Shown here: in pieces, positions 46,050-60,911 of the stretch
Position numbering within the stretch: position 1 is the stretch's first letter
Layout of the letters: each line of letters starts with the position of its first letter
Assembly: GCA_937958985.1 (NCBI GenBank)
Contig: CALGLV010000037.1
Location: 1-64,000 of the forward strand
Length of the DNA: 64,000 bases
Reading direction: 5' to 3'
DNA from: an uncultured Aquimarina sp.
GTDB taxonomy: Bacteria > Bacteroidota > Bacteroidia > Flavobacteriales > Flavobacteriaceae
Notes under the pieces: generated by a model
Seen by the model: the letters and a program-made list of their open reading frames with translations, nothing else
The model's database searches: none
What the model was told of the DNA's origin: nothing
Program-made: the position numbers and the translations under genes

Positions 46050-46427
46050 TTATTCATCAAATCCAATAAGTACTTTATCACCTTCTATACGAACAGGGTA
46101 TGTAGCTATAGCATCCATATCACCATTTAAATTTTCTCCATTTTCAAGAGAAAAAGTTTTTTTATGTAAAGGACAAGCTACTTTAGGAGCTCCTTTATGA
46201 TCTCCAATCATACCTCTACTAAGTACCATTTCCATTTTATGCGGACATAAATTTTGGCAAGCATACCATTTGCCAATTCTATCAAAATTGAAAACAGCAA
46301 TTTGTTTTCCTTTATATTTTACACAAGCGCCTCCATCTTTAGGGAATGAAGATACATTAGCAGCTTCATACCAAACGGTAACATTCTCTATAGTTGTGGT
46401 TTTATATTGTTTTAGAATTTCTTCCAT
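46050..46427 (-). CDS. nirD: Nitrite reductase small subunit (Rieske-type NirD)
   Basis: The protein has 125 residues. The Rieske-like ligands are C61-P-H63 in NLCPHK and C85-PLH88 in VACPLHKKTF, though in NirD proteins they do not always hold a cluster. It partners NirB, which reduces nitrite to ammonium with NAD(P)H in the cytoplasm. It follows nirB with a 65-bp gap, and the operon ends at the hairpin just after it. Confidence 0.9.
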   Translation of the reverse strand: MEEILKQYKTTTIENVTVWYEAANVSSFPKDGGACVKYKGKQIAVFNFDRIGKWYACQNLCPHKMEMVLSRGMIGDHKGAPKVACPLHKKTFSLENGENLNGDMDAIATYPVRIEGDKVLIGFDE

Positions 46428-46492: not shown

Positions 46493-49012
46493 TTATTTCC
46501 AGTGTTGAGGCATTTTTTGATCCCTCAAAGGAACAAAAACTAAATTATCATCCGCTTCTTCACTATTTACAAAATGACTAAAACGACTCATCATTTCAGG
46601 ACTCTCAATAGCTTGTTTCCATTCGCATTCGAATTTGTTGACTAAAGTTGACATTTCCTTATCTAAATCATCAGCAATTCCAAGTTTGTCGTTAATTACG
46701 ATTTCTTTTAAATGCTCTATACCGCCATCTAAACGATCTAGCCAAGCGGCAGTACGTTGTAAGGGCTTAGCAGTACGCATATAATACATTAAAAAACGAT
46801 CGATGTATTTAATTACCGTTTCATTATCAATTTGCTCGGCAAGTAATTCAGCATGGCGTGGTGTAGCACCACCGTTTCCACCTACATATAAATTCCAGCC
46901 TCCGTCAACGGCAATTAAACCGAAATCTTTTCCTCTCGCCTCAGCACATTCACGAATACAACCCGATACACCACCTTTAATTTTATGGGGAGAACGCATA
47001 CCTCGGTAACGATTTTCAAGTTCAATACCAAAACTTACACTTTCGTCCATACCATAACGACACCAAGTAGAACCCACACAGGTCTTAACGGTTCTTAATG
47101 ATTTACCATAAGCATGTCCGCTTTCGAAACCATTATCAATTAATTCTTTCCAAATTTTAGGAAGTTGGTTTAAAGTAGCTCCGAAGAAATCAATACGTAC
47201 CCCACCAGTTATTTTAGTGTAGAGGTCGTATTTTTTACCGATTTCACCTAATATTATTAATTTTTCAGGAGTAATTTCTCCACCAGGAATACGAGGTACT
47301 ACTGAGTAAGTACCATTACGTTGTATGTTTGCTAAAAAACGATCGTTAGAATCTTGAATAGCATATTCTTTATTAGCAGTATCAGCATATATTGTTGCCA
47401 TTAAAGAAGCCACAAGTGGCTTACATAATTCGCAACCGTGTCCGCCGTTTCCATGCTTGTCTAATACTTCATTAAAGGTGGTGTATTCCTTAACCTGAAT
47501 TAAATCATATAATTCTTGACGGTTGTGGTCAAAATGTTCGCAAACACTGTCTTTTACCACTCTACCTAAAGATTTTAATGTAGCATCTACCAAATCTTTA
47601 ACCATAGGTTTACAACCTCCACAACCTGTACCTGCTTTTGTGCAGCCTACAACATCACCTAAATCATTAGCTTCACCACTTTCAATAGCGTTACAAATTT
47701 GACCTTTGGTTACGCTTTCGCAAGAACATATTTGAGCTTCGTCTGGTAAATCCATAACGTCACCTAACAATCCTTCGCCATCACCACCGCGGCTTCCTAA
47801 AATTAAATCTTCAGGATCTTCAGGTAATTTCATTCCATTACTATAAATCTGGAAAAGAGAATTGTAATCAGAAGAATCACCAACTAAAATACCACCTAAT
47901 AATTTTTTTCCGTTTTTAGTAACATTTATTTTTTTATAAACACCATTACGTTTGTTAACATAAGTAATTTCATCTACTGCTTCTTTAGCATCATTTAACG
48001 CATCACCAAAACTAGCTACTTCTGTACCAATTAGTTTTAATTGGGTAGACATATCTATATATTCAGGCATTGCGTTGTCTTTACCTACAATATTATCAAC
48101 GGCAACTTCCGCCATATCGTAACCAGGGGCAACCAAACCGTAAATCATGCTATTTAATAAAGCACATTCACCAATAGCAAAAATATTAGGATCTGAAGTT
48201 TGCATTTTTTGGTTAACAACAATACCACCACGAGTACCTACTTCTAAACCACATTCACGCGCCACTTCGTCTCTAGGGCGAATACCTGCCGACACAACAA
48301 GCATATCTACCTTTAATTCAGTATCATCTACATATTGTAATCCTTCAATTGCTTTATCACCTTGTATATGCTGTGTTTGTTTTGATAAGTGCACTTTTAG
48401 ACCTAAGCTTTCTATTTTAGCTTGAAGCATATCACTGGCTCCTTTGTCTAATTGTCTCGGCATTAAGCGAGGTGCAAATTCAACTACGTGTGCGTTTAAA
48501 CCTAAGTTTTTTACAGCATTGGCAGCTTCTAAACCTAAAAGACCACCACCTAAAACAGCAGCCTCAAGTTTACCTTCAGCTTTAAGCTTTTTAGCATAAG
48601 CTTCAGTAGCTTCTAAATCTTCTATAGTTCTGTACACAAAAACACCTTCTTTTTCGACTCCCGGAATAGGAGGTACGAAAGCAGAGGATCCTGTAGCTAA
48701 AACTAAGTAATCATAACTGTATTTAACTCCTCGGTGATTTGCAACCGTTTTATTTTCTCTATCAATTTCAGTAATCATTTCTGCTACATGTAAATCGATA
48801 TTATTTTCTTCATACCATGTTGCTGAAGACATACTTAAATCTTCTGCAGATTTACCATCGTAAAATTCACTTAAATGAACTCTGTCGTAGGCTCTGCGTG
48901 GTTCTTCTCCAAAAACGGTAAGTTTAAAATTGGCATAATTTTCATTAGCTACAAGTTTTTCGCAAAACTTATAACCTACCATTCCATTACCAATTACAAT
49001 TATATTTTTCAT
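46493..49012 (-). CDS. nirB: NAD(P)H nitrite reductase large subunit
   Basis: The protein has 839 residues, usual for NirB. An FAD/NAD-binding half (about 1-410: IVIGNGMVGYKFCEKL, VLATGSSAFVPPIPG, AVLGGGLLGLEAA, AIGECA) is followed by a BFD-type [2Fe-2S] domain (CSCESVTKGQIC, GCTKAGTGCGGCKP). The sulfite/nitrite reductase half follows, with the [4Fe-4S]-siroheme Cys in TCVGSTWC and SGCIRECAEARGKDFG. It makes six-electron reduction of nitrite to ammonium for assimilation. A TAAGTATTAATACTTA palindrome and a TACTTA-fused -7 box lie upstream. Confidence 0.95.
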   Translation of the reverse strand: MKNIIVIGNGMVGYKFCEKLVANENYANFKLTVFGEEPRRAYDRVHLSEFYDGKSAEDLSMSSATWYEENNIDLHVAEMITEIDRENKTVANHRGVKYSYDYLVLATGSSAFVPPIPGVEKEGVFVYRTIEDLEATEAYAKKLKAEGKLEAAVLGGGLLGLEAANAVKNLGLNAHVVEFAPRLMPRQLDKGASDMLQAKIESLGLKVHLSKQTQHIQGDKAIEGLQYVDDTELKVDMLVVSAGIRPRDEVARECGLEVGTRGGIVVNQKMQTSDPNIFAIGECALLNSMIYGLVAPGYDMAEVAVDNIVGKDNAMPEYIDMSTQLKLIGTEVASFGDALNDAKEAVDEITYVNKRNGVYKKINVTKNGKKLLGGILVGDSSDYNSLFQIYSNGMKLPEDPEDLILGSRGGDGEGLLGDVMDLPDEAQICSCESVTKGQICNAIESGEANDLGDVVGCTKAGTGCGGCKPMVKDLVDATLKSLGRVVKDSVCEHFDHNRQELYDLIQVKEYTTFNEVLDKHGNGGHGCELCKPLVASLMATIYADTANKEYAIQDSNDRFLANIQRNGTYSVVPRIPGGEITPEKLIILGEIGKKYDLYTKITGGVRIDFFGATLNQLPKIWKELIDNGFESGHAYGKSLRTVKTCVGSTWCRYGMDESVSFGIELENRYRGMRSPHKIKGGVSGCIRECAEARGKDFGLIAVDGGWNLYVGGNGGATPRHAELLAEQIDNETVIKYIDRFLMYYMRTAKPLQRTAAWLDRLDGGIEHLKEIVINDKLGIADDLDKEMSTLVNKFECEWKQAIESPEMMSRFSHFVNSEEADDNLVFVPLRDQKMPQHWK

Positions 49013-49031
49013 AGGGAAATGTTTACTTCAA

Positions 49032-49076
49032 CAAAAATAAGTATATTATCTTAAAATAACTAAGTATTAATACTTA
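49032..49076 (-). promoter_or_regulatory. nirBD promoter with palindromic operator
   Basis: On the minus strand the perfect palindrome TAAGTATTAATACTTA (49061-49076) precedes a composite ATACTTATTTTTG (49032-49044), in which the half-site ATACTTA overlaps the -7 box TATTTTTG. The TACTTA starts are 23 bp apart. The ATG is 20 bp after the -7 box. Confidence 0.75.
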
Positions 49077-49088
49077 ATTTATTATGTG

Positions 49089-50486
49089 TTATGTCAGTTG
49101 AACTTTTAAATTTGAGGATGCTTCTTTTTCATCTTCTGTTGAGAATTTTATAGCTAATGATACTAAAGCAGTACCTATAACAAGAAAACCGATAATCATA
49201 TAGCCACTTGAAACAGCGCTAGATGAAGCTAAAGATTGAGCAGCTTCAACAACTTGCTCGCTAGCACCTTGGTTACTTAAAATAGCTTCTTTTTCGGCTA
49301 AAGCAGATTTAGATTTTAATAAAATAGCTGCTAAAAAAGCACCTACATTACCACCTGCTCCTACAATACCACTTATAGATCCAATTGCCTTTTTGTTAAT
49401 AAACGGTACCACAGAAAATGTAGCCCCTTCTGCCATTTGAACAGATAAACTAAATCCGATTAAAAATATAAAGGCTACAATAAAATTAGTACCGGCAGAA
49501 GAAAAGCAAGTAAGCATAATTCCTTCAACCACTAAAATACCAGCCAAGAATAATACACGCCCTCGAAGCCCTTTAGAGTTTCCAAATTTATCTCCAAAAT
49601 AACCACCAAGTGTTCTTGCAAAAATATTCATTAATGCAAATGATAAAACTAAGTTACCAGCAGTTGTTCTTTTTAGATTAAAGGTGTTTTGAAGGTAATC
49701 GTCCATGGTTCCGTAAACGGTTAATTCCATGCCAAAACACGATGCATATACTACAAATAAAATCCATACTCTATAGTCTTTTATTGCAGAAGAAAAGCTA
49801 GCTTCATCTTTTTTAGTCTTGGGGAGTTTTCCTTCAGCTCTTAAGTCAGCATAATTTCCTTCGGGAGTATCTTGAGTAAAATAAAAATAAACGATACCCA
49901 TAAGGAAACAAATACATCCCGCGATAATCATGGAATACCTCCATGCATCTTCTTGCGCAATTCCAAAGCTAATAACGACTGCAGCAATTAAAGGCATTCC
50001 TAAACGGTTGGCACCACCACCTAAATTACCCCATCCGGCCGATGTTGCATTTGCGGTTCCTACAATGTTCGGAGCAAACATTAATGTGGTATGAAATTGA
50101 GTAATCACAAAGGAAGCTCCTATAAATCCTATAAATAATCTACAAATTAAAAATTGAAGAGGAGTTTGTACAAAACCTATTGCAATTACAGGTAAAGCAC
50201 CAATTATAAGTAACCAAGTATAACAAAGTCTAGGGCCATATTTGTCGCACAACTTACCTATTAAAAGTCGCGCAAAAACGGTACCAGTAACTGCTAAAAT
50301 TATGGAATTCCATTTTTGATCTGGAGTCATCCCAAGATCTTTAACAACGTAAGGCATAAAAGGAACAATTCCGAACCAAGAGAAAAAGCATAGGAAAAAT
50401 GCAATAGAAGTAATCCAAAATGTACGGGTTGGAATAGTTTTAAAATTAAGTAATTGTAGTTTTGTGGCTTTTGTAGCTGTATTCAT
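49089..50486 (-). CDS. Nitrate/nitrite transporter, NarK/NasA-type MFS protein
   Basis: The protein has 465 residues and twelve helices. Family marks are FFSWFGIVPFMPYVVKDLGMTPDQ near helix 1 and AGWGNLGGGANRLGMP, a Gly-rich nitrate signature seen in NarK/NasA. A second signature, GIVGAGGNVGAFLAAILL, lies in the later half. It moves nitrate and/or nitrite across the inner membrane. The stop lies 76 bp upstream of nirB with no terminator between, so readthrough into nirB is possible beside the internal promoter. Confidence 0.9.
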   Translation of the reverse strand: MNTATKATKLQLLNFKTIPTRTFWITSIAFFLCFFSWFGIVPFMPYVVKDLGMTPDQKWNSIILAVTGTVFARLLIGKLCDKYGPRLCYTWLLIIGALPVIAIGFVQTPLQFLICRLFIGFIGASFVITQFHTTLMFAPNIVGTANATSAGWGNLGGGANRLGMPLIAAVVISFGIAQEDAWRYSMIIAGCICFLMGIVYFYFTQDTPEGNYADLRAEGKLPKTKKDEASFSSAIKDYRVWILFVVYASCFGMELTVYGTMDDYLQNTFNLKRTTAGNLVLSFALMNIFARTLGGYFGDKFGNSKGLRGRVLFLAGILVVEGIMLTCFSSAGTNFIVAFIFLIGFSLSVQMAEGATFSVVPFINKKAIGSISGIVGAGGNVGAFLAAILLKSKSALAEKEAILSNQGASEQVVEAAQSLASSSAVSSGYMIIGFLVIGTALVSLAIKFSTEDEKEASSNLKVQLT

Positions 50487-50514
50487 TTTTTAGGGAGTTT
50501 GAATATTAAGTCAG

Positions 50515-50557
50515 CGAAAGTAAGTATTTAATTCAGATAGCTAAGTATGTGTACGTA
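50515..50557 (-). promoter_or_regulatory. narK-type gene promoter with degenerate operator
   Basis: The minus strand has ATACTTACTTTCG, the half-site fused to a near -7 box (TACTTTCG at 50515-50522). Upstream is a degenerate palindrome TACGTACACATACTTA (50542-50557, 12 of 16 matches). The TACTTA starts are 21 bp apart, about two helical turns. A further half-site lies at 50565-50572. Confidence 0.6.
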
Positions 50558-50577
50558 ATTAAATTAAGTATTGGTAA

Positions 50578-50616
50578 TAAAAAAAGCAGGCTACTCATTA
50601 CGAATAGCCTGCTTTT
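50578..50616 (-). terminator. Terminator of the porin gene
   Basis: AAAGCAGGCTA pairs with TAGCCTGCTTT (11 bp; 50583-50593 and 50605-50615), followed on the minus strand by a run of T. Confidence 0.9.
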
Positions 50617-50636
50617 AAAGTTATTAAGTATTTTTA

Positions 50637-52097
50637 TTACTTAGTTTCTACAGGTTTTTTCCATTTAAATAAGTTAGGTTTTATGGTTAACATAACCCAA
50701 CCCCAGTTTTGAACACTGTCAGCTTCTAAAGCAACATTACTTCCTCTACTAGCTCTAGCGTCAGCAAAATCACTATTCAAGAAAGACTGTGAATAACCTA
50801 CTTTTACATTAGCATAGCTATTAATTTTTTGAATGTAAACTAAATCAATAGAGGTTCCTATATATCCATCATATACAGCTCCTTCAGCAGCAGTAGAAAA
50901 ATAATGAAGTTTCGTAACTAGCTTAGATTTTTCTCCAGTTTTAAAAACTGCTTTAGCGTTAAGATCAATTAAACCTTCTGCATTTGCATGTCTACCTACA
51001 AAGAAGAAATCTTGGAATCCATTAAATTTGTGATTAGTTCCAAATAGAGGAAAAAACGCTTCTTGATCATCACTATCAAGATCATTACCACTCAAAATTT
51101 CAAATCCTAAACCAAGTAGTGTTGTACCTGTTTTGTAGGTTGCATTAGCTGCTATATCAAAAGCATTAACTTTAGTTCCAGCACTTCCTATTTCTCCAAA
51201 TTGGTAGTATCCACTAAAATCTAAACCAAATTTACCATCTTTATATTTTCCATAAATACCTGTGGTTTGTCTAGAGTTTACTCCAGGAACAGATGAAGTT
51301 GATGTAACCGCATCGGAAGCTTCAACAGCTTCAACAGCTTCTGTAATAATTATTTCTTGCGGTACGTTAGCATCGTCAGTAATTGTTGTTGTTACAGCAG
51401 GTATTGCATCAACAGCCTCTACAGCAGGTGATACAACTGTTGTTGCACTATCTTGGAATTGGTTACTCATAAACAAGAAGCTACCAGAAAACTTATCGCT
51501 AAATTTTTTGTTTATATGTAAAAATTGCATTGCTTTATATTGAAATACTGGTTGTGCAGCTCCTGAGGGAGTGAAAACGTTATTAAAGTTGTTAGGACCA
51601 TTCTGATTAAAAGCGAATCCAATGTCCATTTTAAAACCATCTTTATTATATTTTAGTAAAGCCGCATCGTGAGTTCTCTGTTGGTCAGCCCAGCCTAAAG
51701 CTCCTAATATACGTTGGTCGTCGTAGCTTAAGAACTGTCTACCTACTTTAGTAGCCCATCCTTTTCCAAGTCCAATTTGCGCCCAAGCTCTATTTACTCT
51801 AAAACCTCTACCACTACCACTACCGTCATCGGTTGATAATTGTGATCTATCTCCCCAAACACTAGTATCTTGTAGGTCTAAAAAAGTAGTGATTTTAGAA
51901 TCAGAATATTTTACTAATAAGGATGAGCGTTGAAAAACAAATGAAGAACCTTCAGCGTCTTTAGGAAGTACATCTTGAAAACCATGACGGTATTCAAATC
52001 GAGGTCTAATCATAGCATCAATACTTAATTCTTGTGCTGTAACACTAAAAAAACCTAAACCTGATAAGGCTCCTATAAGTAATTTTGATTTTTTCAT
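50637..52097 (-). CDS. Outer-membrane porin (alginate-export-like beta-barrel)
   Basis: The protein has 486 residues with a signal peptide ending at FFSVTAQ. Barrel features are RPRFEYRHGFQDVL, FLDLQDTSVWGDRSQLS, FRVNRAWAQIGLGKGWATKVGRQFLSYDDQRILGALGWADQQRTHDA, and an aromatic C-terminal strand. This matches the alginate_export-type family often found beside nitrate genes in Bacteroidetes. It probably lets nitrate or nitrite through the outer membrane. An unusual low-complexity insert (about residues 217-272, repeats of AVEAVDAIPAV and AVEAVEASDAV) sits in what should be an external loop. Confidence 0.8.
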   Translation of the reverse strand: MKKSKLLIGALSGLGFFSVTAQELSIDAMIRPRFEYRHGFQDVLPKDAEGSSFVFQRSSLLVKYSDSKITTFLDLQDTSVWGDRSQLSTDDGSGSGRGFRVNRAWAQIGLGKGWATKVGRQFLSYDDQRILGALGWADQQRTHDAALLKYNKDGFKMDIGFAFNQNGPNNFNNVFTPSGAAQPVFQYKAMQFLHINKKFSDKFSGSFLFMSNQFQDSATTVVSPAVEAVDAIPAVTTTITDDANVPQEIIITEAVEAVEASDAVTSTSSVPGVNSRQTTGIYGKYKDGKFGLDFSGYYQFGEIGSAGTKVNAFDIAANATYKTGTTLLGLGFEILSGNDLDSDDQEAFFPLFGTNHKFNGFQDFFFVGRHANAEGLIDLNAKAVFKTGEKSKLVTKLHYFSTAAEGAVYDGYIGTSIDLVYIQKINSYANVKVGYSQSFLNSDFADARASRGSNVALEADSVQNWGWVMLTIKPNLFKWKKPVETK

Positions 52098-52131
52098 AAA
52101 TAATAGTTTAATAGTTTGAAAGAATGTTTTA

Positions 52132-52170
52132 CAAATGTAAGTATAAATACTTAGTTAATACTTAAGTATT
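52132..52170 (-). promoter_or_regulatory. Porin promoter with two overlapping palindromes
   Basis: The -7 box TACATTTG (minus, 52132-52139) is fused to a half-site (ATACTTACATTTG). The palindrome TAAGTATTTATACTTA spans 52138-52153 (minus orientation) and AATACTTAAGTATT spans 52157-52170. A site at the spacing seen before nrtA also aligns (11 of 16). Confidence 0.7.
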
Positions 52171-52384
52171 GTTAAATAATTTTACATTTAATTTTTAATT
52201 AATTGATATTTAAGTATTTATGAGTGTTGTTTTTTTTGTGTGTACTTAGTTTTTGCTTGGTAGAAAGCAAAAAAAACGAATAACAATACTCTTAAAAGTT
52301 GTTTCTTTAGTAAGAAAATCTTGCCTTTTGTTTAAATAAAATAATCTCATGCATATAATAGATGAAAAAATTTCATATCTTGAT
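52171..52384. other. Spacer between divergent porin and regulator genes
   Basis: This part of the 321-bp gap is AT-rich. It holds one extra half-site TAAGTATT (52211-52218). I see no open frame or strong hairpin. Confidence 0.5.
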
Positions 52385-52401
52385 ATACTTAGTTATTTTT
52401 G
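52385..52401 (+). promoter_or_regulatory. Promoter of the NarL-type regulator gene
   Basis: A half-site ATACTTA (52385-52391) immediately precedes TATTTTTG (52394-52401). No full palindrome is present. The ATG is 17 bp downstream. Confidence 0.5.
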
Positions 52402-52418
52402 TTTAAATATTAATTTCA

Positions 52419-53129
52419 ATGAGCAGTATGTATAGAATTTTATTGGTTGACGATCACTCTTTGGTTAGGGATGGTATTAAATCTTTATTGGCTGACGTGT
52501 CTGGTATGGAGGTAGTCGGAGAAGCTTCAAATGGAGAAGAGGCTATTCAAGTTACAGAAAACTTAAAGCCAGACTTAGTTATTTGCGATATACGTATGCC
52601 TATAAAAAATGGTATTGAGGCGGTTTCTGAAATGTCCAAATCAATTTTAGGGACTAAGTATATTATGTTATCGATGCACGATTCGGAAGAATACATAATT
52701 CAATCGGTACAAGCAGGCGCTCATGGTTACTTATTAAAAGATGCTGGAAAAGAAGAGTTTTTAAAAGCAATACATACTGTTAAAGATGGCGGTAAGTATT
52801 ATAGCGGAGATGTATCTTCAATATTAGTAAACAGTTTATTGGAAGGAGGGAGTTCTAAGTTCTCAAACACATTAACCAAGACTGAGCTGCAAATAGATTC
52901 TAAAAAAGAAGAGAATATTGATACTACGGCTAATTATAGTTTAACAAAAAGAGAGCACCAAATATTAGAAAAAGCGGTTGCAGGCTATAGTAATAGAGAA
53001 ATTGCGGAGGCTTTAGGTATTAGTAAAAGAACTACTGAGGTACATCGCTTTAATTTAATGAAGAAATTAAATGTTAAAAATATTTTGGACTTAAGTAATA
53101 AAGCCAGGAAATTTGGATTAATTGAATAG
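52419..53129 (+). CDS. NarL/FixJ-type response regulator
   Basis: The protein has 236 residues. The receiver domain covers 1-120 with the acidic pair DD (11-12), phospho-acceptor D57 (VICDIRMP) and K107 (YLLKD). The LuxR-type helix-turn-helix covers about 172-230 (LTKREHQILEKAVAGYSNREIAEALGISKRTTEVHRFNLMKKL). It lies divergent from the porin gene inside the nitrate island and is the only regulator there, so it is the best candidate to bind the TACTTA sites and to be phosphorylated by the P-box kinase. A half-site adjoins its own -7 box, which suggests autoregulation. Confidence 0.85.
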   Translation: MSSMYRILLVDDHSLVRDGIKSLLADVSGMEVVGEASNGEEAIQVTENLKPDLVICDIRMPIKNGIEAVSEMSKSILGTKYIMLSMHDSEEYIIQSVQAGAHGYLLKDAGKEEFLKAIHTVKDGGKYYSGDVSSILVNSLLEGGSSKFSNTLTKTELQIDSKKEENIDTTANYSLTKREHQILEKAVAGYSNREIAEALGISKRTTEVHRFNLMKKLNVKNILDLSNKARKFGLIE

Positions 53130-53152
53130 TAATTTTTTAATTTCAAACATAT

Positions 53153-53191
53153 AAAAAGCCCCTATTTTAATATTAAAATAGGGGCTTTTTT
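53153..53191. terminator. Bidirectional terminator between the regulator and the first P-box gene
   Basis: AAAAAGCCCCTATTTTAA (53153-53170) and its near-perfect complement up to 53191 form a long stem with T runs on both strands, between convergent genes. Confidence 0.9.
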
Positions 53192-53227
53192 GAGAGAAAA
53201 ATTTAATATTCAATGGGGTGAAATGTA

Positions 53228-54049
53228 TTATATACTAGCTAACTCTTCGTATTCAGAAGTTAATATTCTGAAAAGTTTGTTTAATTTATTAGTAGTGGTA
53301 TAAATAGTATTCATAGTAGGCTTACCATCTAAAAAATCGGTTTTGTTGGTGCGGATATCATCAAAAGCAATTAAGGCATCATTAATTATTCTAACAGTAA
53401 GCGGGTTATTTACGTTTGTTTTTAAAAGAACAATTAATTGTTTATCCAGTCTCTCCATAACTGATTTAAGAGTGCCTAGTATTTTTTGATTTTGCTCAGG
53501 AGCAATAATATTTATTTTTTGAGCTACAAAATACAAACACAAGCGTTCCGAAGACACTTCTTGTTTTTCGCTAATTTCTAATAAATTTTCAATACTTGAA
53601 TTCGAGGAGTTAAAAGAATCATTAGCTTCGGCTTTGAATGCACTATATACTAAATGTGATTTTTTTAATAGAACGTTAGATAATTCAACTACTTCATTCA
53701 AATTTTTAGTTGTTGGTTTAATAGTCACGTTTTTCTTAAGGGCATACCATGCTACAGCTTCTTTTGTAATAATATTATTAGCAATAGGTGAAAATTCGTT
53801 GGGACCTTCAGTTTGTAATACATTAAGATTGTTCTCAAAAAGAATAATACTTGTTTTTATTTCAGACCTTATTTGATAGAAGTTAGCTCCGTAAGCCAAC
53901 AACAAATAAGATTTAGCAATTTTTTGAGATAAAACGCGTTGCTCTCTTGCGATATCAATCAAATTACTTTTCATATTATTCGCAAAAAGAGAAGTTCCGC
54001 TAATAAGAAGAAAAGAAAAGGAGGCAATAAGTTTAAGTGTTGCTTTCAT
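53228..54049 (-). CDS. Secreted PilJ/NarX-like P-box protein, second module degenerate
   Basis: The protein has 273 residues with a signal peptide ending near GTSLFANN and no other membrane helix, so it should be periplasmic. The N-terminal module has the P-box LIDIAREQRVLSQKIAKSY (about 31-49), similar to the kinase sensor. A second copy near residue 155 reads LLEISEKQEVSSERLCLYF and has lost the Arg-Met pair. There is no kinase, HAMP or chemotaxis domain. It may bind nitrate/nitrite in the periplasm, as a ligand buffer or co-sensor, but this is inference. I found no operator palindrome before it. Confidence 0.75.
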   Translation of the reverse strand: MKATLKLIASFSFLLISGTSLFANNMKSNLIDIAREQRVLSQKIAKSYLLLAYGANFYQIRSEIKTSIILFENNLNVLQTEGPNEFSPIANNIITKEAVAWYALKKNVTIKPTTKNLNEVVELSNVLLKKSHLVYSAFKAEANDSFNSSNSSIENLLEISEKQEVSSERLCLYFVAQKINIIAPEQNQKILGTLKSVMERLDKQLIVLLKTNVNNPLTVRIINDALIAFDDIRTNKTDFLDGKPTMNTIYTTTNKLNKLFRILTSEYEELASI

Positions 54050-54281
54050 ATCTAAATATTATTAGGTTACAATGTAAAGATAACACATTTTTACATTTAA
54101 ACCTTGTTTTTAACACTTAATCGAGTACTACAACATTATAGTTGTTTTTTGTTTTGTATTAAAAAAACCATAATGTAGGAATAAACCTACTTTTTAGTTA
54201 GTTGTTGGAATTATTATAGTTTTTATGAGTATTTAAGGGGGCATATGTAATTTTATACTACCTTGTTAAGGTTATTTAAAT
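54050..54281. other. Spacer upstream of the first P-box gene
   Basis: The stretch is AT-rich. I see no full palindrome, no clear TAnnTTTG for the downstream gene and no open frame. The next gene's terminator begins at 54282. Confidence 0.4.
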
Positions 54282-54323
54282 AAAAAAAACATCTAATTAG
54301 CTAAAAGCAATTAGATGTTTTTT
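54282..54323 (-). terminator. Terminator of the second P-box gene
   Basis: AAAAAACATCTAATT (54284-54298) and AATTAGATGTTTTTT (54309-54323) form a perfect 15-bp stem, with a T run on the minus strand. Confidence 0.9.
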
Positions 54324-54347
54324 AAGTGAGTTTTTCTTTATGATTTT

Positions 54348-55184
54348 CTATAAAGAAGTGTACTGTCCTGTTATTACGTTATAAAGACTTGTGATTTTAT
54401 TAGTTTTGCTCATAATATTTGTAAGAGGTAATTTGTTGTTGAAAAAATCTCTTTTATTGTTTTCAATATCCTCAAATAAACTTAGCACTTTTCCTATATT
54501 ACCTTCAATACTAAAAGTATTTAGGTCGCTAATTAATAAGTTGTTTAAGGAGTTATTCATTTCGCCATAAATTTCTTCAACCTTATCACACATACCTTTA
54601 GAGTTTAGTTTTTCTTTACGATATAGTCTACAAGCAACATAATACAAGCAAAGCCTTTGTGATAGCATTCGTTGTTTTCCTGATAAATTAATTGTAGTAA
54701 CTTTAGATTGTTCAGATTCTTCTTCATTTAAAAACTCTTTATTGTATTTCGAATCTTCTTCAATAGCAAGTACTAAGGCGTGGCATGTTTTTAATAATAA
54801 GTTAGATGTTTCCATTATGGCATTTACGTTCGCTAAATTCCTATTTCGTAATACCTCTTTAAATTGTTCAAATAAATTATTTTCTTTTTTAATTAGTGTT
54901 TTTACTTTGGCAGAGCTGTTCTCAGAATTAGCTTTCAGAATGGCTAAATTTCGTTGAAACAATTGTATGCTAGAAGTAAATTCACTTGAAAGTTCTGAAC
55001 CAGAAGCCCCTGCAAGTCTTATTAAATGAACTTTTGCTATACGTTGGGAAAGCATGCGTTGTTTTCCTGATATATTGGTAGCCTTTTTGAAGCTAATTTT
55101 ACCGTAAGAAGTGTTTTGTGCACTTAGGTCAAAAACCGCTAGTATACTTAGTAAGTAAAATGAAAGTGTTGTTAATTTTTTCAT
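54348..55184 (-). CDS. Secreted tandem P-box (PilJ/NarX-like) protein
   Basis: The protein has 278 residues with a signal peptide (LAVFDLSAQN) and no further membrane helix. It holds two well-preserved P-boxes about 127 residues apart: ATNISGKQRMLSQRIAKVHL (about 35-54) and TINLSGKQRMLSQRLCLYYV (about 162-181). Both keep the two Arg that line up with the ligand Arg of NarX. Each box starts a four-helix-bundle-sized module, so the protein looks like a monomeric equivalent of the dimeric NarX sensor. It has the same promoter type as nrtA, from which it diverges. A soluble nitrate/nitrite-binding role is inferred. Confidence 0.75.
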   Translation of the reverse strand: MKKLTTLSFYLLSILAVFDLSAQNTSYGKISFKKATNISGKQRMLSQRIAKVHLIRLAGASGSELSSEFTSSIQLFQRNLAILKANSENSSAKVKTLIKKENNLFEQFKEVLRNRNLANVNAIMETSNLLLKTCHALVLAIEEDSKYNKEFLNEEESEQSKVTTINLSGKQRMLSQRLCLYYVACRLYRKEKLNSKGMCDKVEEIYGEMNNSLNNLLISDLNTFSIEGNIGKVLSLFEDIENNKRDFFNNKLPLTNIMSKTNKITSLYNVITGQYTSL

Positions 55185-55215
55185 AACAGAATATTTTAGG
55201 GATTATTGTATGGTA

Positions 55216-55248
55216 CAAATATAAGTATATCTAAGTATTAATACTTAG
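55216..55248 (-). promoter_or_regulatory. Promoter of the tandem P-box gene with perfect 18-bp palindrome
   Basis: CTAAGTATTAATACTTAG (55231-55248) is a perfect palindrome. On the minus strand it is followed by ATACTTATATTTG, the half-site fused to the -7 box TATATTTG (55216-55223). The TACTTA starts are 10 bp apart, one helical turn. Confidence 0.75.
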
Positions 55249-55369
55249 GTTTTTTTGTTTTTTTTACATTTTTTATTGTTTGTTTATTTTTAAAACAAAG
55301 TCTATGTGATTGATAATCATTGATTAGTAGTCTGTATTAAGTGTTTTTTTAAAAAATATAAGTATTTAC

Positions 55370-55402
55370 TAAGTATTAATACGTAATTAATACTTATATT
55401 TG
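55370..55402 (+). promoter_or_regulatory. nrtA operon promoter with palindrome and fused half-site
   Basis: TAAGTATTAATACGTA (55370-55385, 15 of 16 matches) is followed by ATACTTATATTTG with -7 box TATATTTG (55395-55402). The TAC starts are 11 bp apart. Extra half-sites lie just upstream (around 55359). Confidence 0.75.
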
Positions 55403-55436
55403 TACTGTCAACAAAATAATAATAAACAGTATTCTT

Positions 55437-56816
55437 ATGAAAAATAGGTATTTGAAAATATCAGCAAGTGTTTTTGCAGCAGTTTTGGTTTCTTGTGGAG
55501 GAAAGAAGAAGCATGAGGCAGCTCAAGGAGAAGTTGAAGCAGCTCCAGCTATTCCTACTTTGGAAATAGAAAAGCCACAATTAAAATTTGGTTTTATAAA
55601 GCTAACAGATATGGCTCCTTTGGCAATTGCTAAAGAAAAAGGATTTTTTGAAGATGAGGGATTGTTTGTTTCGGTAGAAGCACAGTCTAATTGGAAAAAT
55701 ATTTTAGATAGAGTAATTGATGGTCAGTTAGATGGATCGCATATGTTGGCAGGTCAGCCGATTGCTGCTCAAGCAGGTTTTGGTCGTCAGGCGGAGCTTG
55801 TAACAGCTTATTCTATGGATTTAAATGGAAATGGAATTACAGTATCTAATGATGTGTGGGCAAAAATGAAGCCTAATGTTAAAAAGGATTCAGAAGGTAA
55901 GCCTGTTCATCCAATTTCAGCGAAAGCTTTAAAGCCAGTAATTACGGAATATAAAAAAGAGGGGAAGCCTTTTAAAATGGGAATGGTATTTCCGGTATCA
56001 ACTCATAACTACGAAATTCGTTATTGGTTAGCTGCAGCAGGTATACACCCAGGAATGTATACGGCTAGTAATATTCAAGGTCAGGTAGATGCTGAAGTTT
56101 TATTGTCTGTAACTCCACCGCCACAAATGCCAGCAACTTTAGAAGCGGGTACTATTTACGGATATTGTGTAGGAGAGCCATGGAATCAGCAAGCTGTGTT
56201 TAAAGGTATAGGTGTTCCAGTGACAACTAATTATGATATTTGGAAAAACAATCCAGAAAAAGTATTTGTAATGACTAAGCAATTTATGGAGAAATATCCA
56301 AATACTTCAGTTGCTGTTACGAAAGCTTTAATTAGAGCAGGAAAATGGTTAGATGAGCCAGGAAATAGAAAAGAAGCGGTGCAGATTTTATCTAAGCCAG
56401 GTTACGTTGGTGCGCCAGTAGATGTATTAGCAAATTCTATGACAGGTACTTTTGAATTCGAAAAAGGAGATAAAAGAGAAATGCCTGATTTTAATGTGTT
56501 CTACAAGTACAATGCAACGTATCCTTTCTACTCGGATGCAGTATGGTTTTTAACTCAAATGAGAAGATGGGGACAAATTCCAGAGGCTAAATCGGCAGAT
56601 TGGTATGCCTCAAAAGCAAAAGAAGTTTACCGCCCGGATGTTTGGTTGAAAGCAGCTAAATTATTAGTAGCCGAAGGTAAAATACCTGCAACAGATATTC
56701 CTGATACTGATGGTTTCAAACCAGCAACACAAGATTTTATTGATGGTAATAAATATGATGGTAAAGATCCTATAGGATATATCAATAGTTTTAAAATTGG
56801 TAATAAAGATAAATAA
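55437..56816 (+). CDS. nrtA: Nitrate/nitrite ABC transporter substrate-binding lipoprotein (NrtA-like)
   Basis: The protein has 459 residues with a lipobox LVSC (Cys 20). It matches the NrtA/CmpA family: [80 protein letters not shown] and [14 protein letters not shown]. It captures nitrate (or bicarbonate in CmpA) in the periplasm. Nitrate is favoured by the neighbours. It is the first gene of nrtA-nrtB-nrtC-nrtD, with an intercistronic hairpin after it. Confidence 0.85.
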
Positions 56817-56854
56817 GATTAGGGAGTGTTGAATTTTTTTGACACGGAGTTAAA

Positions 56855-56875
56855 GGGGGGCTTTTTAAGCTTCCC
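56855..56875 (+). other. Intercistronic hairpin between nrtA and nrtB
   Basis: GGGGGGCTT (56855-56863) pairs with AAGCTTCCC (56867-56875), with two GU pairs and a 3-nt loop. There is no T run, so it more likely stabilises nrtA mRNA or lowers downstream expression than terminates. Confidence 0.5.
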
Positions 56876-56960
56876 TATACTCTTAACCTCCCATCCCATA
56901 AAACAACAATTAAAAGTAAATCAAAAGAAAGCATTTCAATACATCAATCCCTAAAGTATA

Positions 56961-58052
56961 ATGATTATGAAAGACAAATCAATCAATATATTAAAATTTA
57001 TTGGTTTAGGATTTTTTGAGCCCATCGTGCGCCTAGCAGCTGGTGAAGAGGTGAAAAAAAACCTTACCGAATTAATAAAAAAAGTAGTATTTCCATTAGT
57101 GTCTATTTTCTTGTTTATTATTTTGTGGAGTGTAGGCTCAAGGGCTTTATACAATACTGAAAGAAATTATAAAATTGAAACCGCACGTACTGCAGGTGGA
57201 GAGGAAGCGGTTACAGCTGAACTAGCTAGAATGGAATCTGGACAGAGTACTATAAACTCGTTACCAGCCCCTGGAGCTGTTTGGGAAGCCTTTAAAAATT
57301 TAATAGCCGACCATAATGCTATTAGTGCTAAAAAAGAGGCTTTTTATGAAAGAGTATCCGCTACTAATGAAAAATTAGCAGCCCAAGGAAAAAAAGAAAT
57401 CACTTATACAGGACGACCGTCTTTTGTAGATCAAGTAATGACTAGTTTAAAAACGGTATTTGCAGGATTTATTTTAGCCTTGTTTTTGGCAGTTCCTATA
57501 GGAATGGTTTTAGGATTAAGCGAAACCTTACGATCTTCATTCAATTGGTTTATACAAATATTCAAACCAGTATCGCCTGTTGTTTGGTTTTTGTTAGTAT
57601 ATATGATTGTAAAAACACTTACACTTACTTATGATGGTGATGTGTCGTTTGTAATATCTTTTATCGCTGTAGGTTTGTGTGCTATGTGGGCAACACTAGT
57701 GAACACAACGCTTGGAGTAGCGTCGGTAGATAAAGATTATATTAATGTAGCCAAAGTACTTAATTTAAGTGTAGGTCAAAAAGTATTTAAAATAGTATTG
57801 CCATCAGCATTTCCGTTAATTTTTACAGGTTTACGCATAACGGTGTCGGTAGCTTGGATGGTATTAATTGCCATTGAATTATTATCTCAAAGTCCAGGAT
57901 TAGGAACATTTGTATGGGAAGAGTTTCAAAATGGAGCTAATGATTCTAACGCCAAAATTATTGCAGCGATGTTTGTAATTGGTTTAATAGGTTTTATGTT
58001 AGATCGCATTATGTTTTCGATACAAAAATTAATGACATTCACTGAAGCTTAA
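56961..58052 (+). CDS. nrtB: ABC transporter permease (NrtB-like)
   Basis: The protein has 363 residues. An N-terminal helix (FPLVSIFLFIILWSVGSRAL) is followed by a periplasmic Glu/Lys-rich segment, then five to six helices of the binding-protein-dependent permease type. The coupling loop is around NVAKVLNLSVGQKVFKIVLPSAFPLIFTGLRI, the EAA-like motif. A second ATG 6 bp inside is an equally likely start. The unusually long insert between helix 1 and the permease core (about 60-145) is not seen in all NrtB proteins. Confidence 0.85.
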   Translation: MIMKDKSINILKFIGLGFFEPIVRLAAGEEVKKNLTELIKKVVFPLVSIFLFIILWSVGSRALYNTERNYKIETARTAGGEEAVTAELARMESGQSTINSLPAPGAVWEAFKNLIADHNAISAKKEAFYERVSATNEKLAAQGKKEITYTGRPSFVDQVMTSLKTVFAGFILALFLAVPIGMVLGLSETLRSSFNWFIQIFKPVSPVVWFLLVYMIVKTLTLTYDGDVSFVISFIAVGLCAMWATLVNTTLGVASVDKDYINVAKVLNLSVGQKVFKIVLPSAFPLIFTGLRITVSVAWMVLIAIELLSQSPGLGTFVWEEFQNGANDSNAKIIAAMFVIGLIGFMLDRIMFSIQKLMTFTEA

Positions 58053-58140
58053 ATAGGTTTACGGTTTTAAAGTTTCAGGTTTAAAGTTGTTATAAATAAT
58101 AAGCCCAAAACAGTAAACTACAAACCATAAACCAAAATTT

Positions 58141-58995
58141 ATGGCACATATAGAATTAAAAAACGTTTCAAAATCATACGGAACGGGAGCAAATAAAATA
58201 GAGGTACTTAATAATATAAACCTTAAAATAGAAGAAGGCGAATTTGTTGCAATTGTAGGTTTTTCAGGAAGTGGAAAAACGACATTGATAAATCTTATTT
58301 CAGGACTTGAATTTCCAGATGAAGGAGAAGTGCTGTTCAAAGGAGAACCTGTAACAGGTCCAAGTCACGAAAGAGGGGTTATTTTTCAAAACTATTCATT
58401 ATTACCATGGCTAAACGTTCATAATAACGTAAGCATGGCGGTAAAAGAAAAGTTTAAAAAATGGTCAAGAACCCAAATTAGTGATCGTGTAAAAGATTAT
58501 GTGAAAATGGTGGGCTTATCACACGCAATCACAAAATTACCCAAAGAACTTTCAGGAGGAATGCGCCAGCGGGTATCGGTAACTAGAGCATTGGCTATGA
58601 GTCCGGAAGTTATTTTAATGGATGAGCCATTAAGTGCTTTGGATGCTTTAACGCGCGGGACATTACAAGATGAGATTCTAAATATTTGGAATAAAGATAA
58701 AAGAACCGCTTTGTTAATTACCAACGACGTTGATGAGGGTATTTATATGGCTGATAGAATTATACCATTACGACCAGGCCCTAAAGCTACTTTAGGGCCA
58801 GAATTTGTGATAAATATAGATCGTCCTAGAGATAAGATTGCGTTGAATAATGATGATAATTTTAAAAAATTACGTAATTCAATCTTAGAATTTTTAATTC
58901 AGATAGGAAAGGAGCGAAAGGCAAAAGCTTCTAAAGAGTATATTTTGCCTAATATTAAGCCTATACTTAGAACAAAATTAGGAACACGAGTTTAA
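58141..58995 (+). CDS. nrtC: ABC transporter ATP-binding protein, nitrate type (first)
   Basis: The protein has 284 residues. The Walker A is GFSGSGKTT (40-48), the signature ELSGGMRQR, the Walker [13 protein letters not shown], and the switch region reads [17 protein letters not shown]. The last 40 residues are basic and extend beyond the core. It lacks the substrate-binding-like C-terminal domain of cyanobacterial NrtC, so the symbol refers to position only. It pairs with the next ATPase. Confidence 0.85.
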
Positions 58996-59005
58996 AACGA
59001 AAGTT

Positions 59006-59824
59006 ATGGAAACAAAAGAAATTAAAGACACTCGTGAACACAATGGATTGTTTCGTCATGAGTATATGTTAGATATATCTGGGTTAAACAAAACTTACCC
59101 TACTCCTAATGGAGATTATGTAGTTTTGGATGATTTGGACTTAAAAGTTAAAAAAGAAGAATTTATTTCAATTATCGGTCATTCGGGTTGTGGCAAGAGT
59201 ACGCTACTAACCATGATTGCAGGTTTAAATGAAATATCAAAGGGAACTATAATTGCAGGTAATAAAACCGTTAAAGGGGCAGGGCCCGATAGGGCAGTGA
59301 TTTTTCAATCGCCAAGTTTGTTTCCTTGGATGACGGCTTATGAAAATGTAATGATTGGGGTAAAGCAAGTTTTTGCTCATGGGAGTAAAAAAGAACGCGA
59401 CGATATTGTAAAATATTATTTAGCAAAGGTTGGTTTAGAGGACTCCATGTTTAAAAAAGCTAAAGATCTTTCGCAAGGTATGCAACAACGGGTAGGTATT
59501 GCACGAGCATTTGCTTTGAAGCCTAAAGTTTTGTTGTTAGATGAGCCGTTCGGAATGTTAGATTCCCTAACTAGAGGAGAGTTACAAGATGTTTTGGTTG
59601 AAGTTTGGAACCAAGAAAAAATTACTGCAGTAATGATAACACACGATGTTGATGAATCTATTTTGTTAGCAGACAGAGTAATTATGATGACATCGGGACC
59701 AAGGGCAAAAGTAGGCGATATTTTAGAAATCGATTTTGAACGACCTAGAGATAGAGCTGCATTGTTAGATCATCCCGATTACTATAAATATAGAGAGCAT
59801 TTAATTAATTTTTTAGAACATTAA
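59006..59824 (+). CDS. nrtD: ABC transporter ATP-binding protein, nitrate type (second)
   Basis: The protein has 272 residues. The Walker A is GHSGCGKST (58-66), the Walker B VLLLDEPFGMLD, and the switch VMITHDVDESILLADRV. The signature is LSQGMQQR in place of LSGGQ. It follows the first ATPase by 10 bp. Together they probably form a heterodimer on NrtB. A terminator follows after 46 bp. Confidence 0.85.
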   Translation: METKEIKDTREHNGLFRHEYMLDISGLNKTYPTPNGDYVVLDDLDLKVKKEEFISIIGHSGCGKSTLLTMIAGLNEISKGTIIAGNKTVKGAGPDRAVIFQSPSLFPWMTAYENVMIGVKQVFAHGSKKERDDIVKYYLAKVGLEDSMFKKAKDLSQGMQQRVGIARAFALKPKVLLLDEPFGMLDSLTRGELQDVLVEVWNQEKITAVMITHDVDESILLADRVIMMTSGPRAKVGDILEIDFERPRDRAALLDHPDYYKYREHLINFLEH

Positions 59825-59869
59825 TTAATAAAAGTAACTAGTTTAATTAATATTAGTTTTTTTCGATTG

Positions 59870-59904
59870 AAATCCAATGTTTCTTGTAAATATTGGATTT
59901 TTTC
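59870..59904 (+). terminator. Terminator of the nrt operon
   Basis: AAATCCAAT (59870-59878) pairs with ATTGGATTT (59892-59900), followed by TTTTTTC. Confidence 0.75.
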
Positions 59905-60046
59905 TTGTTTCATATTGAAGATATGAAAACTTTACGGGAATAATAATTTCCATAAATACAACAAAATAACAAAAAGTGAATATAAAAATCACAGAGTATT
60001 GATGATTAGTAAATTAATCATAAAAAAAGAAGAAGAATAGAATTTA

Positions 60047-60109
60047 TAAGTATTAATGCTTAAATTAGCTAAAAATATCTAAGTATATTTAAAAAATACT
60101 TACTTTTCG
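60047..60109 (+). promoter_or_regulatory. Orphan nitrate-type promoter/operator cluster
   Basis: TAAGTATTAATGCTTA (60047-60062, 15 of 16 matches), a half-site TAAGTATATTT (60080-60090), and a composite AATACTTACTTTTCG (60095-60109) that closely resembles the narK-gene composite. A last half-site lies at 60111-60118. No gene follows on the plus strand. Confidence 0.5.
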
Positions 60110-60114
60110 GTAAG

Positions 60115-60211
60115 TATTAAAAAGAAAGAGCTCTTAATTTTATCAACAAATATTGTTAGTATTATAAAGACAGTTAAACTTCTTCTCGTGTTGATAATTT
60201 TGGGAGCTCTT
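60115..60211 (+). ncRNA. Candidate nitrate-responsive non-coding RNA or structured element
   Basis: AAGAGCTCTTAATTTTATCA and three more bases (60126-60148) can pair with the segment 60189-60211 through about 23 positions with a few mismatches and GU pairs, closing a 40-nt loop. It begins 17 nt after the orphan composite promoter. There is no T run on the plus strand. On the minus strand a T-rich tail follows, so it may instead terminate the arsC operon. Confidence 0.3.
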
Positions 60212-60284
60212 ATAATATAAATGACTGCAAGTATAATAATTAATTTTTTAAACTAAATAAAGATTTGTTTAATTAACAATTGTA

Positions 60285-60899: not shown

Positions 60900-60911
60900 A
60901 AAAAGAATAGG

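Follow-up and report, generated by a model that had tools for sequence, protein, structure and literature searches.

The two-component systems NarXL and NarQP of Escherichia coli combine a P-box sensor of the PilJ/NarX kind and a HisKA_3 kinase with a regulator of the NarL/FixJ family, and act on nitrate metabolism through inverted heptamers with 2 bp between them. The heptamer consensus of NarL is TACYYMT, and the residues K188 and K192 of this protein read bases. Two other described sites bear some resemblance to it: the box of RcsB, another member of the NarL/FixJ family, which is a 14-bp sequence (TAAGAATATTCTTA) with TAAG...CTTA ends outward and is connected with envelope stress, and the cyanobacterial NtcA box, a GTA-N8-TAC palindrome that precedes nitrogen-assimilation genes and is recognized by a Crp-family protein. 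According to the parts of the respective papers covered here, NarL prefers the 7-2-7 arrangement (PMC4549865), the RcsB half-site TCTAAGA is contacted by K180 and S184 (PMC5829831), and the nitrate-sensing histidine kinases (NSHKs) of Bacteroidetes form a cluster with no HAMP or GAF-like domain, with nitrate genes near almost all of the representatives examined, e.g., those of Joostella marina and Indibacter alkaliphilus (PMC8199190). For these kinases, the same parts of the latter paper mention neither a DNA site nor a regulon, and no title or abstract start describing an operator such as the one presented below was found in a search that left subscription papers mostly outside. Here, we analyse a 16-bp palindrome that recurs in the nitrate island of an uncultured Aquimarina sp. 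(a stretch of 64,000 nucleotides from contig CALGLV010000037.1 of the assembly GCA_937958985.1, hereafter the window), and that is probably the operator of a pair formed by a NarX/NarQ-like kinase and a NarL-family response regulator (RR) controlling nitrate assimilation in Flavobacteriaceae and in Algoriphagus (family Cyclobacteriaceae).

This locus shares with NarXL and NarQP the sensor, kinase and regulator families, the inverted heptamers 2 bp apart and the connection with nitrate metabolism. Unlike them, it has heptamers TA(C/A)GTAT with G at position 4 instead of Y, a regulator in which E207 and F211 align with K188 and K192 of NarL, respectively (as read by eye from the alignment), operators overlapping the Bacteroidetes -7 element and an assimilatory regulon, and its kinase gives no HAMP or GAF hits, as in the Bacteroidetes cluster described in the sections covered of PMC8199190. 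Since neither the equivalog cut-offs nor the heptamer of NarL are reached, the system is best set in the NarXL/NarQP kind, but not as NarL proper. The likeness to the RcsB box goes as far as the outward TAAG...CTTA ends and the regulator family, whereas the RcsB box has no 2-bp gap and the RR of the window scores far below the cut-off of the RcsB model (46.4 of 235 bits). The NtcA box is likewise a GTA...TAC palindrome before nitrogen-assimilation genes, but its arms are separated by eight bases instead of four, and the Crp-family candidate found here is largely excluded as the general binder.

The putative operator and the genes that it precedes

The consensus of 204 sites, chosen for having at most two mismatches to the pattern, reads T-A-(C 64%/A 36%)-G-T-A-T(79%)-W-W-A(79%)-T-A-C-(G 64%/T 36%)-T-A, that is, two inverted heptamers TA(C/A)GTAT-N2-ATAC(G/T)TA with their TA ends outward and 2 bp between them (7-2-7), while the flanking base 17 is not conserved. 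The initial annotation of the window had taken this palindrome for a distinct Bacteroidetes-type site made of outward TACTTA(T) heptamers, unlike the 7-2-7 arrangement of NarL and NarP. As to the geometry, this is wrong: the inner seventh base is T in 79% of the 204 sites, whereas the seventh T that the outward parse needs occurs in only 27% of the 173 sites left after removing identical contexts. What does hold as distinct is the placement of the site and the sequence of its heptamer, in which position 4 is G in ~100% of the 204 sites and does not fit TACYYMT; the commoner variant, TACGTAT, differs from it at that position only, and most copies in the window are of the TAAGTAT variant. That first description also lacked the extra half-sites in steps of ~10 bp and the half-site fused to the -7 element that are dealt with below.

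All six copies reported initially were found at their positions (Table 1): two exact, three with one mismatch and one, before narK, matching at 12 of 16 bases. No full copy exists elsewhere in the window, where the next-best places, at 15923 and 38052, have three mismatches. The five copies with up to one mismatch compare with a mean of 0.01 and a maximum of 1 in 200 dinucleotide shuffles of the window; up to three mismatches the excess is modest (7 vs 2.43 expected, with 3 of 100 shuffles reaching 7). In the whole assembly (2.12 Mb in 52 contigs, 80.5% complete), the palindrome with up to one mismatch appears in nine places, of which five are those of the window, one is inside valS and three precede other genes, namely glnII (contig C8), a cyanate/nitrate-type ABC operon with cyanase (C28) and the gene of an exported protein (C10). 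The latter site (L045:9619), with one mismatch, lies ~50 bp before the gene, which runs off its contig. Matches with two mismatches mean little by themselves, because the genome-wide count up to that level (17) exceeds the reversed control (10) only slightly; they include one before nasA on contig C9 and, on C29, places before a globin gene and a redox operon of the Tll0287 type, but three others fall within coding sequence.

A generalised site, TAMGTATNNATACKTA, whose consensus was learnt from the relatives, has eight exact occurrences in the assembly vs none in the reversed control. Four of them are in the window and the others precede glnII, nasA, the cyanate operon and the Tll0287 operon, the last one at ~160 bp from the operon start; all eight stand before genes of the regulon or of the redox operon. 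The half-site TACTTANNTTTG alone is not specific in this genome (11 and 14 matches vs 9 and 13 in the control) and is thus informative only in its context. The scans of genome and relatives bear out that the palindrome is not randomly distributed, and the nitrate regulon proposed initially is coherent; its confinement to the island is not supported, as the site also precedes glnII, nasA, the cyanate uptake and cyanase genes, the Tll0287 operon and (with two mismatches) globin elsewhere.

The relatives were the best 80 loci of at least 477 relatives of the regulator, from Aquimarina, Maribacter, Arenibacter, Zobellia, Cellulophaga, Algoriphagus and others. As these loci were chosen by their RR, genes near it are favoured; the relatives are not independent, and the counts are not weighted by a tree. 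Gene matches covering less than 40% of the query were dropped (except for the kinase), and for the upstream counts so were matches under 55% identity for nirB, 60% for narK, nrtC and nrtD, 37% for the kinase and 45% for the RR, as well as upstream stretches shorter than 150 bp. Nitrate genes are present in nearly all 80 loci in a shuffled order, and the site follows the operon heads: up to one mismatch and within 200 bp upstream, it is found before 42 of 44 nirB, 41 of 43 narK, 37 of 38 nrtA, 52 of 63 nasA, 10 of 17 globin, 16 of 80 RR, 13 of 73 porin and 3 of 3 tandem P-box genes, when single-base shuffles predict at most 0.15 sites per gene. The low porin count is probably due to the many porin genes that follow nrtD. 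By the same measure, there are none before nirD (44), DUF4202 (36), the kinase (35), nrtB (42), nrtC (44), nrtD (44), the nirA-like gene (61), Tll0287 (16) and the first PilJ gene (2); allowing two mismatches there are still none for nirD and DUF4202, and 2, 1 and 0 for nrtB, nrtC and nrtD. A scan with the narrower TAAGTATNNATACTTA (up to two mismatches) gave 227 matches in the 80 loci, 197 of them before a listed gene. A spaced-dyad search free of any preset pattern had the operator motif in its top registers, GTA-N4-TAC being present in 118 of 127 non-redundant upstream regions (out of 188 before removing near-identical rows) vs 8.0 expected. As an observation on nasA itself, the 1173-aa product of that of locus L043 (6260-9781) joins a molybdopterin nitrate reductase to a flavin domain of the NirB kind, and 3' of it there is a protein with a rubredoxin domain and a sirohaem reductase half domain.

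The candidate two-component pair

A link between the site and the RR is seen in 249 sampled genomes of the family. In this sample, 60 genomes have nirB, and as many have the kinase and nasA, which are the same genomes as compared by eye, and the RR was found in 59 at E <1e-40 (the weakest hit being 4.2e-62). The exact degenerate site is present in all 59 RR-bearing genomes (178 sites vs 6 in the control), but in only 25 of the other 190 (Fisher p 1.6e-37, uncorrected for kinship). The sixtieth genome, G030, had been considered as a natural experiment with nirB and no RR; that idea was dropped, since it holds, beside the kinase, an RR of 45% identity whose recognition helix is nearly the same and, upstream of nirB, a 1-mismatch site fused to the -7 element TATATTTG, so that it supports the link rather than tests it. 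Among 25 of the 178 sites, hand-picked and not random, that lie off or beside the island (20 stretches in 12 genomes), seven precede nrtA, eight globin (one of them inside an over-extended start of the open reading frame, ORF), one narK, one a NarK-like MFS gene (27%), three a Crp/Fnr gene and one a nitrogen-starvation/AraC-type pair, and four are at unrelated genes.

The RR of the window shares 95% identity with the one from an uncultured Aquimarina, and its Response_reg (5.3e-29) and GerE (4.5e-19) domains place it in the NarL/FixJ family with a LuxR-type helix-turn-helix (HTH). Its best solved relative is NarL (1a04, E 1.5e-33), although it scores below the NarL equivalog cut-off (155.6 of 250 bits). 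In its recognition helix (alpha-9), S202, R204, T205, E207, H209, R210, F211, N212, M214 and K216 are invariant in 82 of 82 sequences and K203 is kept in 79, as would be expected if one operator were being kept. Moreover, no other DNA-binding family occurs in the ORF clusters present in at least half of the 80 loci (which were chosen by the RR). The NarL-type regulator of the island, already pointed to in the initial annotation, is thus the best candidate to bind the site; the binding itself we infer from co-occurrence and exclusion. There is no palindrome before its own gene in the window, only the single half-site listed in Table 1, which makes autoregulation possible.

The kinase encoded nearby is the candidate sensor. 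Its nearest NCBIfam models are MctS, UhpB, NarQ and NarX, all far below their cut-offs (93.1 of 553 bits for NarQ, 69 of 578 for NarX), which sets it apart from NarQ and NarX proper, and in Pfam it gives a PilJ hit (1.6e-10), no HAMP or GAF hit and no PAS hit up to E 0.1. In the sections covered of PMC8199190, a PAS domain is described for the members of the Bacteroidetes cluster from Flavobacteriales and Cytophagales, unlike what is seen here, and the NSHK P-box is given as A-I-N-x-A-G-S-L-R-M-Q-S-Y-R-L, with G-x-x-R as the nitrate-binding core. The P-box of the window kinase, I-I-N-I-A-G-K-Q-R-M-L-S-Q-K, keeps the N, A, G, R, M and S residues and the G-x-x-R core of the NSHK type, and this comparison points to nitrate as the likely signal. 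In five of the 60 genomes with the pathway (G002, G237, G082, G180 and G228), the alignment to the kinase query does not begin before residue 178-190, which looks like a replacement or lack of the PilJ sensor in them.

Promoter architecture, sign of control and competing explanations

Promoters of Flavobacterium psychrophilum carry TAnnTTTG at -12 to -5, according to the part of PMC9723704 covered. Taking this element as reference, placement was evaluated in 123 of the 198 promoters with a palindrome, namely those that also have an exact TAnnTTTG at one of the distances counted, keeping for each one the palindrome/-7 pair with the fewest mismatches and then the distance nearest 15 bp. The palindrome centres fall into separate classes with none between them: 36 at -18.5, one at -20.5, 42 at -26.5 to -30.5, seven at -38.5 to -41.5 and 37 at +5.5 to +13.5. 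Hexamer half-sites, in turn, pile up near -66, -56, -45, -35/-33, -25/-23, -15/-13, +5 and +15, the last half-site often sharing bases with the -7 element or adjoining it. TACKTA at -13.5 or -15.5 is present in 88 of the 123 promoters, including 37 of 37 of the -18.5 class (as part of the palindrome), 27 of 49 with the palindrome upstream and 24 of 37 with it downstream, vs 12 of 76 TAnnTTTG elements before non-listed genes of the same loci. All of these 12 genes look like uroporphyrinogen-III C-methyltransferase (the two tested were over the model cut-off), an enzyme needed for siroheme, and for this reason we count the methyltransferase as a target; up to one mismatch, 30 of 31 methyltransferase genes have a site within 170 bp, possibly shared where they diverge from nirB.

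From these data a mechanism can be proposed. Nitrate bound to the PilJ/P-box sensor would determine the phosphorylation state of the RR, whose dimer would bind the 7-2-7 site TA(A/C)GTAT-N2-ATAC(T/G)TA, the geometry of which is apparent in the aligned sites, and the extra half-sites ~10 bp apart would bring in further RR along one face of the helix. Where the site is centred at -18.5, ~-28.5 or ~-40.5, the phosphorylated RR would activate weak promoters when nitrate is present, and we consider activation at these three classes somewhat more likely than not, because the sensor and regulator families work in this way and TTG at -33 is not enriched. At the nrtA and globin promoters of the Maribacter type, with the palindrome near +10, it would more likely restrain transcription. 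The regulon so predicted is nasA, nirBD, narK, nrtABCD, the uroporphyrinogen (siroheme) methyltransferase, the porin and globin, plus the Tll0287 operon in the window's genome and, where present, a Crp/Fnr regulator. More tentatively, there might be a Bacteroidetes-specific mode of control in which the RR occupies a helically phased ladder of half-sites, from ~-66 to the one fused to the -7 element, where it would replace the missing -33 contact and touch sigma from -13.5/-15.5, a contact position that E. coli NarL does not use in the cases compared; at other promoters, an extension of this ladder to ~+15 would give control of the opposite sign.

Several observations weigh against this proposal. 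Concerning the binder, the 190 genomes without an RR hit hold 42 exact sites vs 23 in the reversed control, in 25 genomes, which is a mild excess, and co-occurrence cannot separate the RR from another factor travelling with the pathway, as the two always occur together in the sample. Of the 42 sites, 16 (from 8 of the 25 genomes) were inspected and none of these is in a nitrate locus, and a comparison with 19 regulon proteins gave no nearby match except for a 29% match to a receiver domain. Some sites of this RR-negative set have the form TACGTA-N4-TACGTA and stand before genes resembling those of secreted proteins or lipoproteins. Concerning the targets, 30 of the 227 matches to TAAGTATNNATACTTA are not before a listed gene, and in a survey of 18 genomes (14 with the pathway and four without it) the glnII site with up to one mismatch was found in 2 of the 17 with the gene (the window's genome and G180), and none was found at 25 amt loci. 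Concerning the promoters, 75 of the 198 have no exact TAnnTTTG at the counted distance, the clustering measure for the ~10-bp register (R of 0.70, 0.64 and also 0.59 for periods of 10, 10.5 and 13 bp, respectively) was computed without a null, and the -7 elements were picked with a preference for a 15-bp distance. TTG at the -33 distance occurs in 10 of 131 operator promoters vs 9 of 53 other promoters of these loci (p 0.067; the post hoc value of 0.018 is not relied on). Finally, an operator position on the -7 element or around +10 would suit a repressor.

This last possibility, that the same RR acts from the same site by covering the -7 element or the start site until nitrate relieves it, is the most probable of the alternatives, though less likely than activation. 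It would account for the palindromes at -18.5, whose last half-site shares the TA of the -7 element, and for those at +5.5 to +13.5. Sensors of the NarX/NarQ type are nonetheless expected to switch NarL-type regulators on with nitrate, and the -33 TTG, if anything rarer in operator promoters, suits activator-dependent ones, without being significant. The ~10-bp register is more naturally predicted by a contact with the polymerase, even if it is compatible with repression too. The E. coli precedents, as given in the part of PMC4549865 covered, go both ways: NarL acts as a repressor at frdA, where its 7-2-7 site is close to the start, but as an activator at napF and yeaR, with 7-2-7 sites at ~-38 to -49, a class that is also present here.

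It is improbable that an unlinked, general nitrogen regulator, shared by all nitrate assimilators, binds the site while the linked two-component pair controls something else. In favour of it, the genome of the window has the site before glnII and the cyanate genes, and its congener G177 has an exact one (contig C72, locus L166, site 4013) where an AraC-type gene and an MSMEG_0572/Sll0783 nitrogen-starvation gene diverge, which hints that the regulon of this genus extends to other nitrogen sources. Nevertheless, 165 of the 190 genomes without an RR hit (G030 included) lack the exact site, and with glnII at 2 of 17 (2 of 14 among the pathway-positive genomes searched) and amt at 0 of 25 a general nitrogen regulon is unsupported as the conserved core, which is nitrate use and not general nitrogen status. 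glnII and cyanate use are lineage-specific additions, the latter in the window's genome.

Still less credible is the binding of the palindrome, in the frame xAAGTA-N4-TACTTx, by a Crp/Fnr protein. In many relatives this protein is encoded next to nrtA, globin or moeA; the E...R pair is kept in its F-helix, a 16-bp CRP frame would place a G where CRP and FNR read one, and in three loci the palindrome precedes its own gene. Orthologues (E <=2.4e-83, followed by a gap to 2e-40) exist in 43 of the 249 genomes, all with the RR, but they are absent from 16 of the 59 RR-bearing genomes, which still bear 1-8 sites each (mean 2.5 vs 3.2), and this largely excludes it as the general binder. At E 1e-25 there is no hit in the genome of the window (eight sites; 80.5% complete) or in G177 (five sites; 99% complete), and direct-repeat half-sites 11 bp apart would suit a response regulator better. 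The Crp/Fnr protein is better read as a target, which suggests a regulatory cascade with this second regulator downstream of the two-component pair. The three loci just mentioned (L160:7912-8661, L161:4202-4963 and L163:4012-4794) encode it beside nrtA, globin or moeA, with an N-terminal Cys cluster.

As for chance matches in promoters, which in flavobacteria are AT-rich and where 2-mismatch copies are common (17 vs 10), they are practically ruled out by the specificity for operon heads, together with the exact degenerate sites (8 vs 0), the co-occurrence (59/59 vs 25/190), the dyads (118/127 vs 8.0) and the shuffles (mean 0.01).

Features of the nitrate island and outlook

The operator copies of the window and the genes around them are collected in Table 1. 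Two of these genes encode PilJ-domain proteins without a kinase, and an operator precedes only the second, none lying upstream of the first in the window; relatives of both were found only in Aquimarina among the 80 loci (L052, L053, L054 and L055). The tandem P-box protein is a possible accessory nitrate-binding protein. The hairpin downstream of the orphan array is 97.9% identical over 94 bp in L052, where the whole convergent gap is 89% identical, and is absent from G177, G250 and G251; Rfam gives no match to it, and it is a candidate for a nitrate-regulated small RNA, or else a terminator. In the Rfam search of 48900-61000, a weak sau-19 match (53140-53194, 30.3 bits vs a gathering score of 80) was taken as chance.

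Table 1. Operator copies, genes and other features of the nitrate island (window coordinates; mismatches refer to the 16-bp palindrome unless stated otherwise)
Feature	Position	Strand	Remarks
Sensor histidine kinase, 603 aa	43565..45376	-	Pfam: PilJ/NarX-like sensor (P-box IINIAGKQRMLSQ), HisKA_3, HATPase_c; candidate nitrate sensor
DUF4202 protein	45376..45960	-	Pfam; operon-internal
nirD, nitrite reductase small subunit	46050..46427	-	TIGR02378, 101.9 bits, over cut-off; operon-internal
nirB, nitrite reductase large subunit	46493..49012	-	TIGR02374, 1021.5 bits, over cut-off
Second, degenerate 16-bp site before nirB, TAAGATAATATACTTA	49038..49053	-	Final TA is the TA of the -7 element TATTTTTG (49032-49039)
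Operator before nirB, TAAGTAT-TA-ATACTTA	49061..49076	-	Exact 7-2-7; centre ~-41.5 if TAnnTTTG is -12 to -5
narK-type nitrate/nitrite MFS transporter	49089..50486	-	TIGR00886, 297.1 bits, just below cut-off (311.7); MFS_1
Half-site TACTTACTTTCG before narK	50515..50526	-	Fused to an imperfect -7 element
Operator before narK, TACGTACACATACTTA (minus strand)	50542..50557	-	12/16 (4 mismatches); 1 mismatch to TAMGTATNNATACKTA
Outer-membrane porin-like protein	50637..52097	-	Pfam Alginate_exp, PF13372
Operator before porin, TAAGTATTTATACTTA	52138..52153	-	1 mismatch; fused to the -7 element TACATTTG (52132-52139); centre -18.5
Lone half-site TACTTA before the response regulator	52386..52391	+	Just 5' of TATTTTTG (52394-52401)
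Response regulator, 236 aa	52419..53129	+	Pfam: receiver and LuxR/GerE HTH; proposed binder of the site
PilJ-domain protein without kinase	53228..54049	-	Pfam
Tandem P-box (PilJ) protein	54348..55184	-	Pfam; operator also in 3/3 relatives
Operator before tandem P-box gene	55232..55247	-	Exact; third half-site 55222-55227 fused to -7 TATATTTG (55216-55223)
nrtA operator array	55359..55396	+	16-bp site 55370-55385 (1 mismatch); half-sites TAAGTA, TAAGTA, TACGTA, TACTTA starting at 55359, 55370, 55380, 55391 (steps 11-10-11); last one fused to -7 TATATTTG (55395-55402)
nrtA-type nitrate ABC binding protein	55437..56816	+	NCBIfam SsuA_fam, below cut-off; name from context
nrtB-type transporter gene	56961..58052	+	Operon-internal; name from context
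nrtC-type transporter gene	58141..58995	+	Operon-internal; name from context
nrtD-type transporter gene	59006..59824	+	Operon-internal; name from context
Orphan site TAAGTATTAATGCTTA	60047..60062	+	1 mismatch; convergent gap after nrtD; three more hexamers (60080-60116)
Conserved hairpin, single-copy	60126..60211	+	Predicted -28.2 kcal/mol; just downstream of the orphan array

The palindrome is thereby tied to the known 7-2-7 class of NarL sites, with a changed heptamer, and it raises a question about its regulator: how does it work when its operator shares bases with the -7 element? For a group of marine Bacteroidetes, the analysis provides a testable matrix, candidates for the regulator and the sensor, and a set of putative targets for the use of nitrate.

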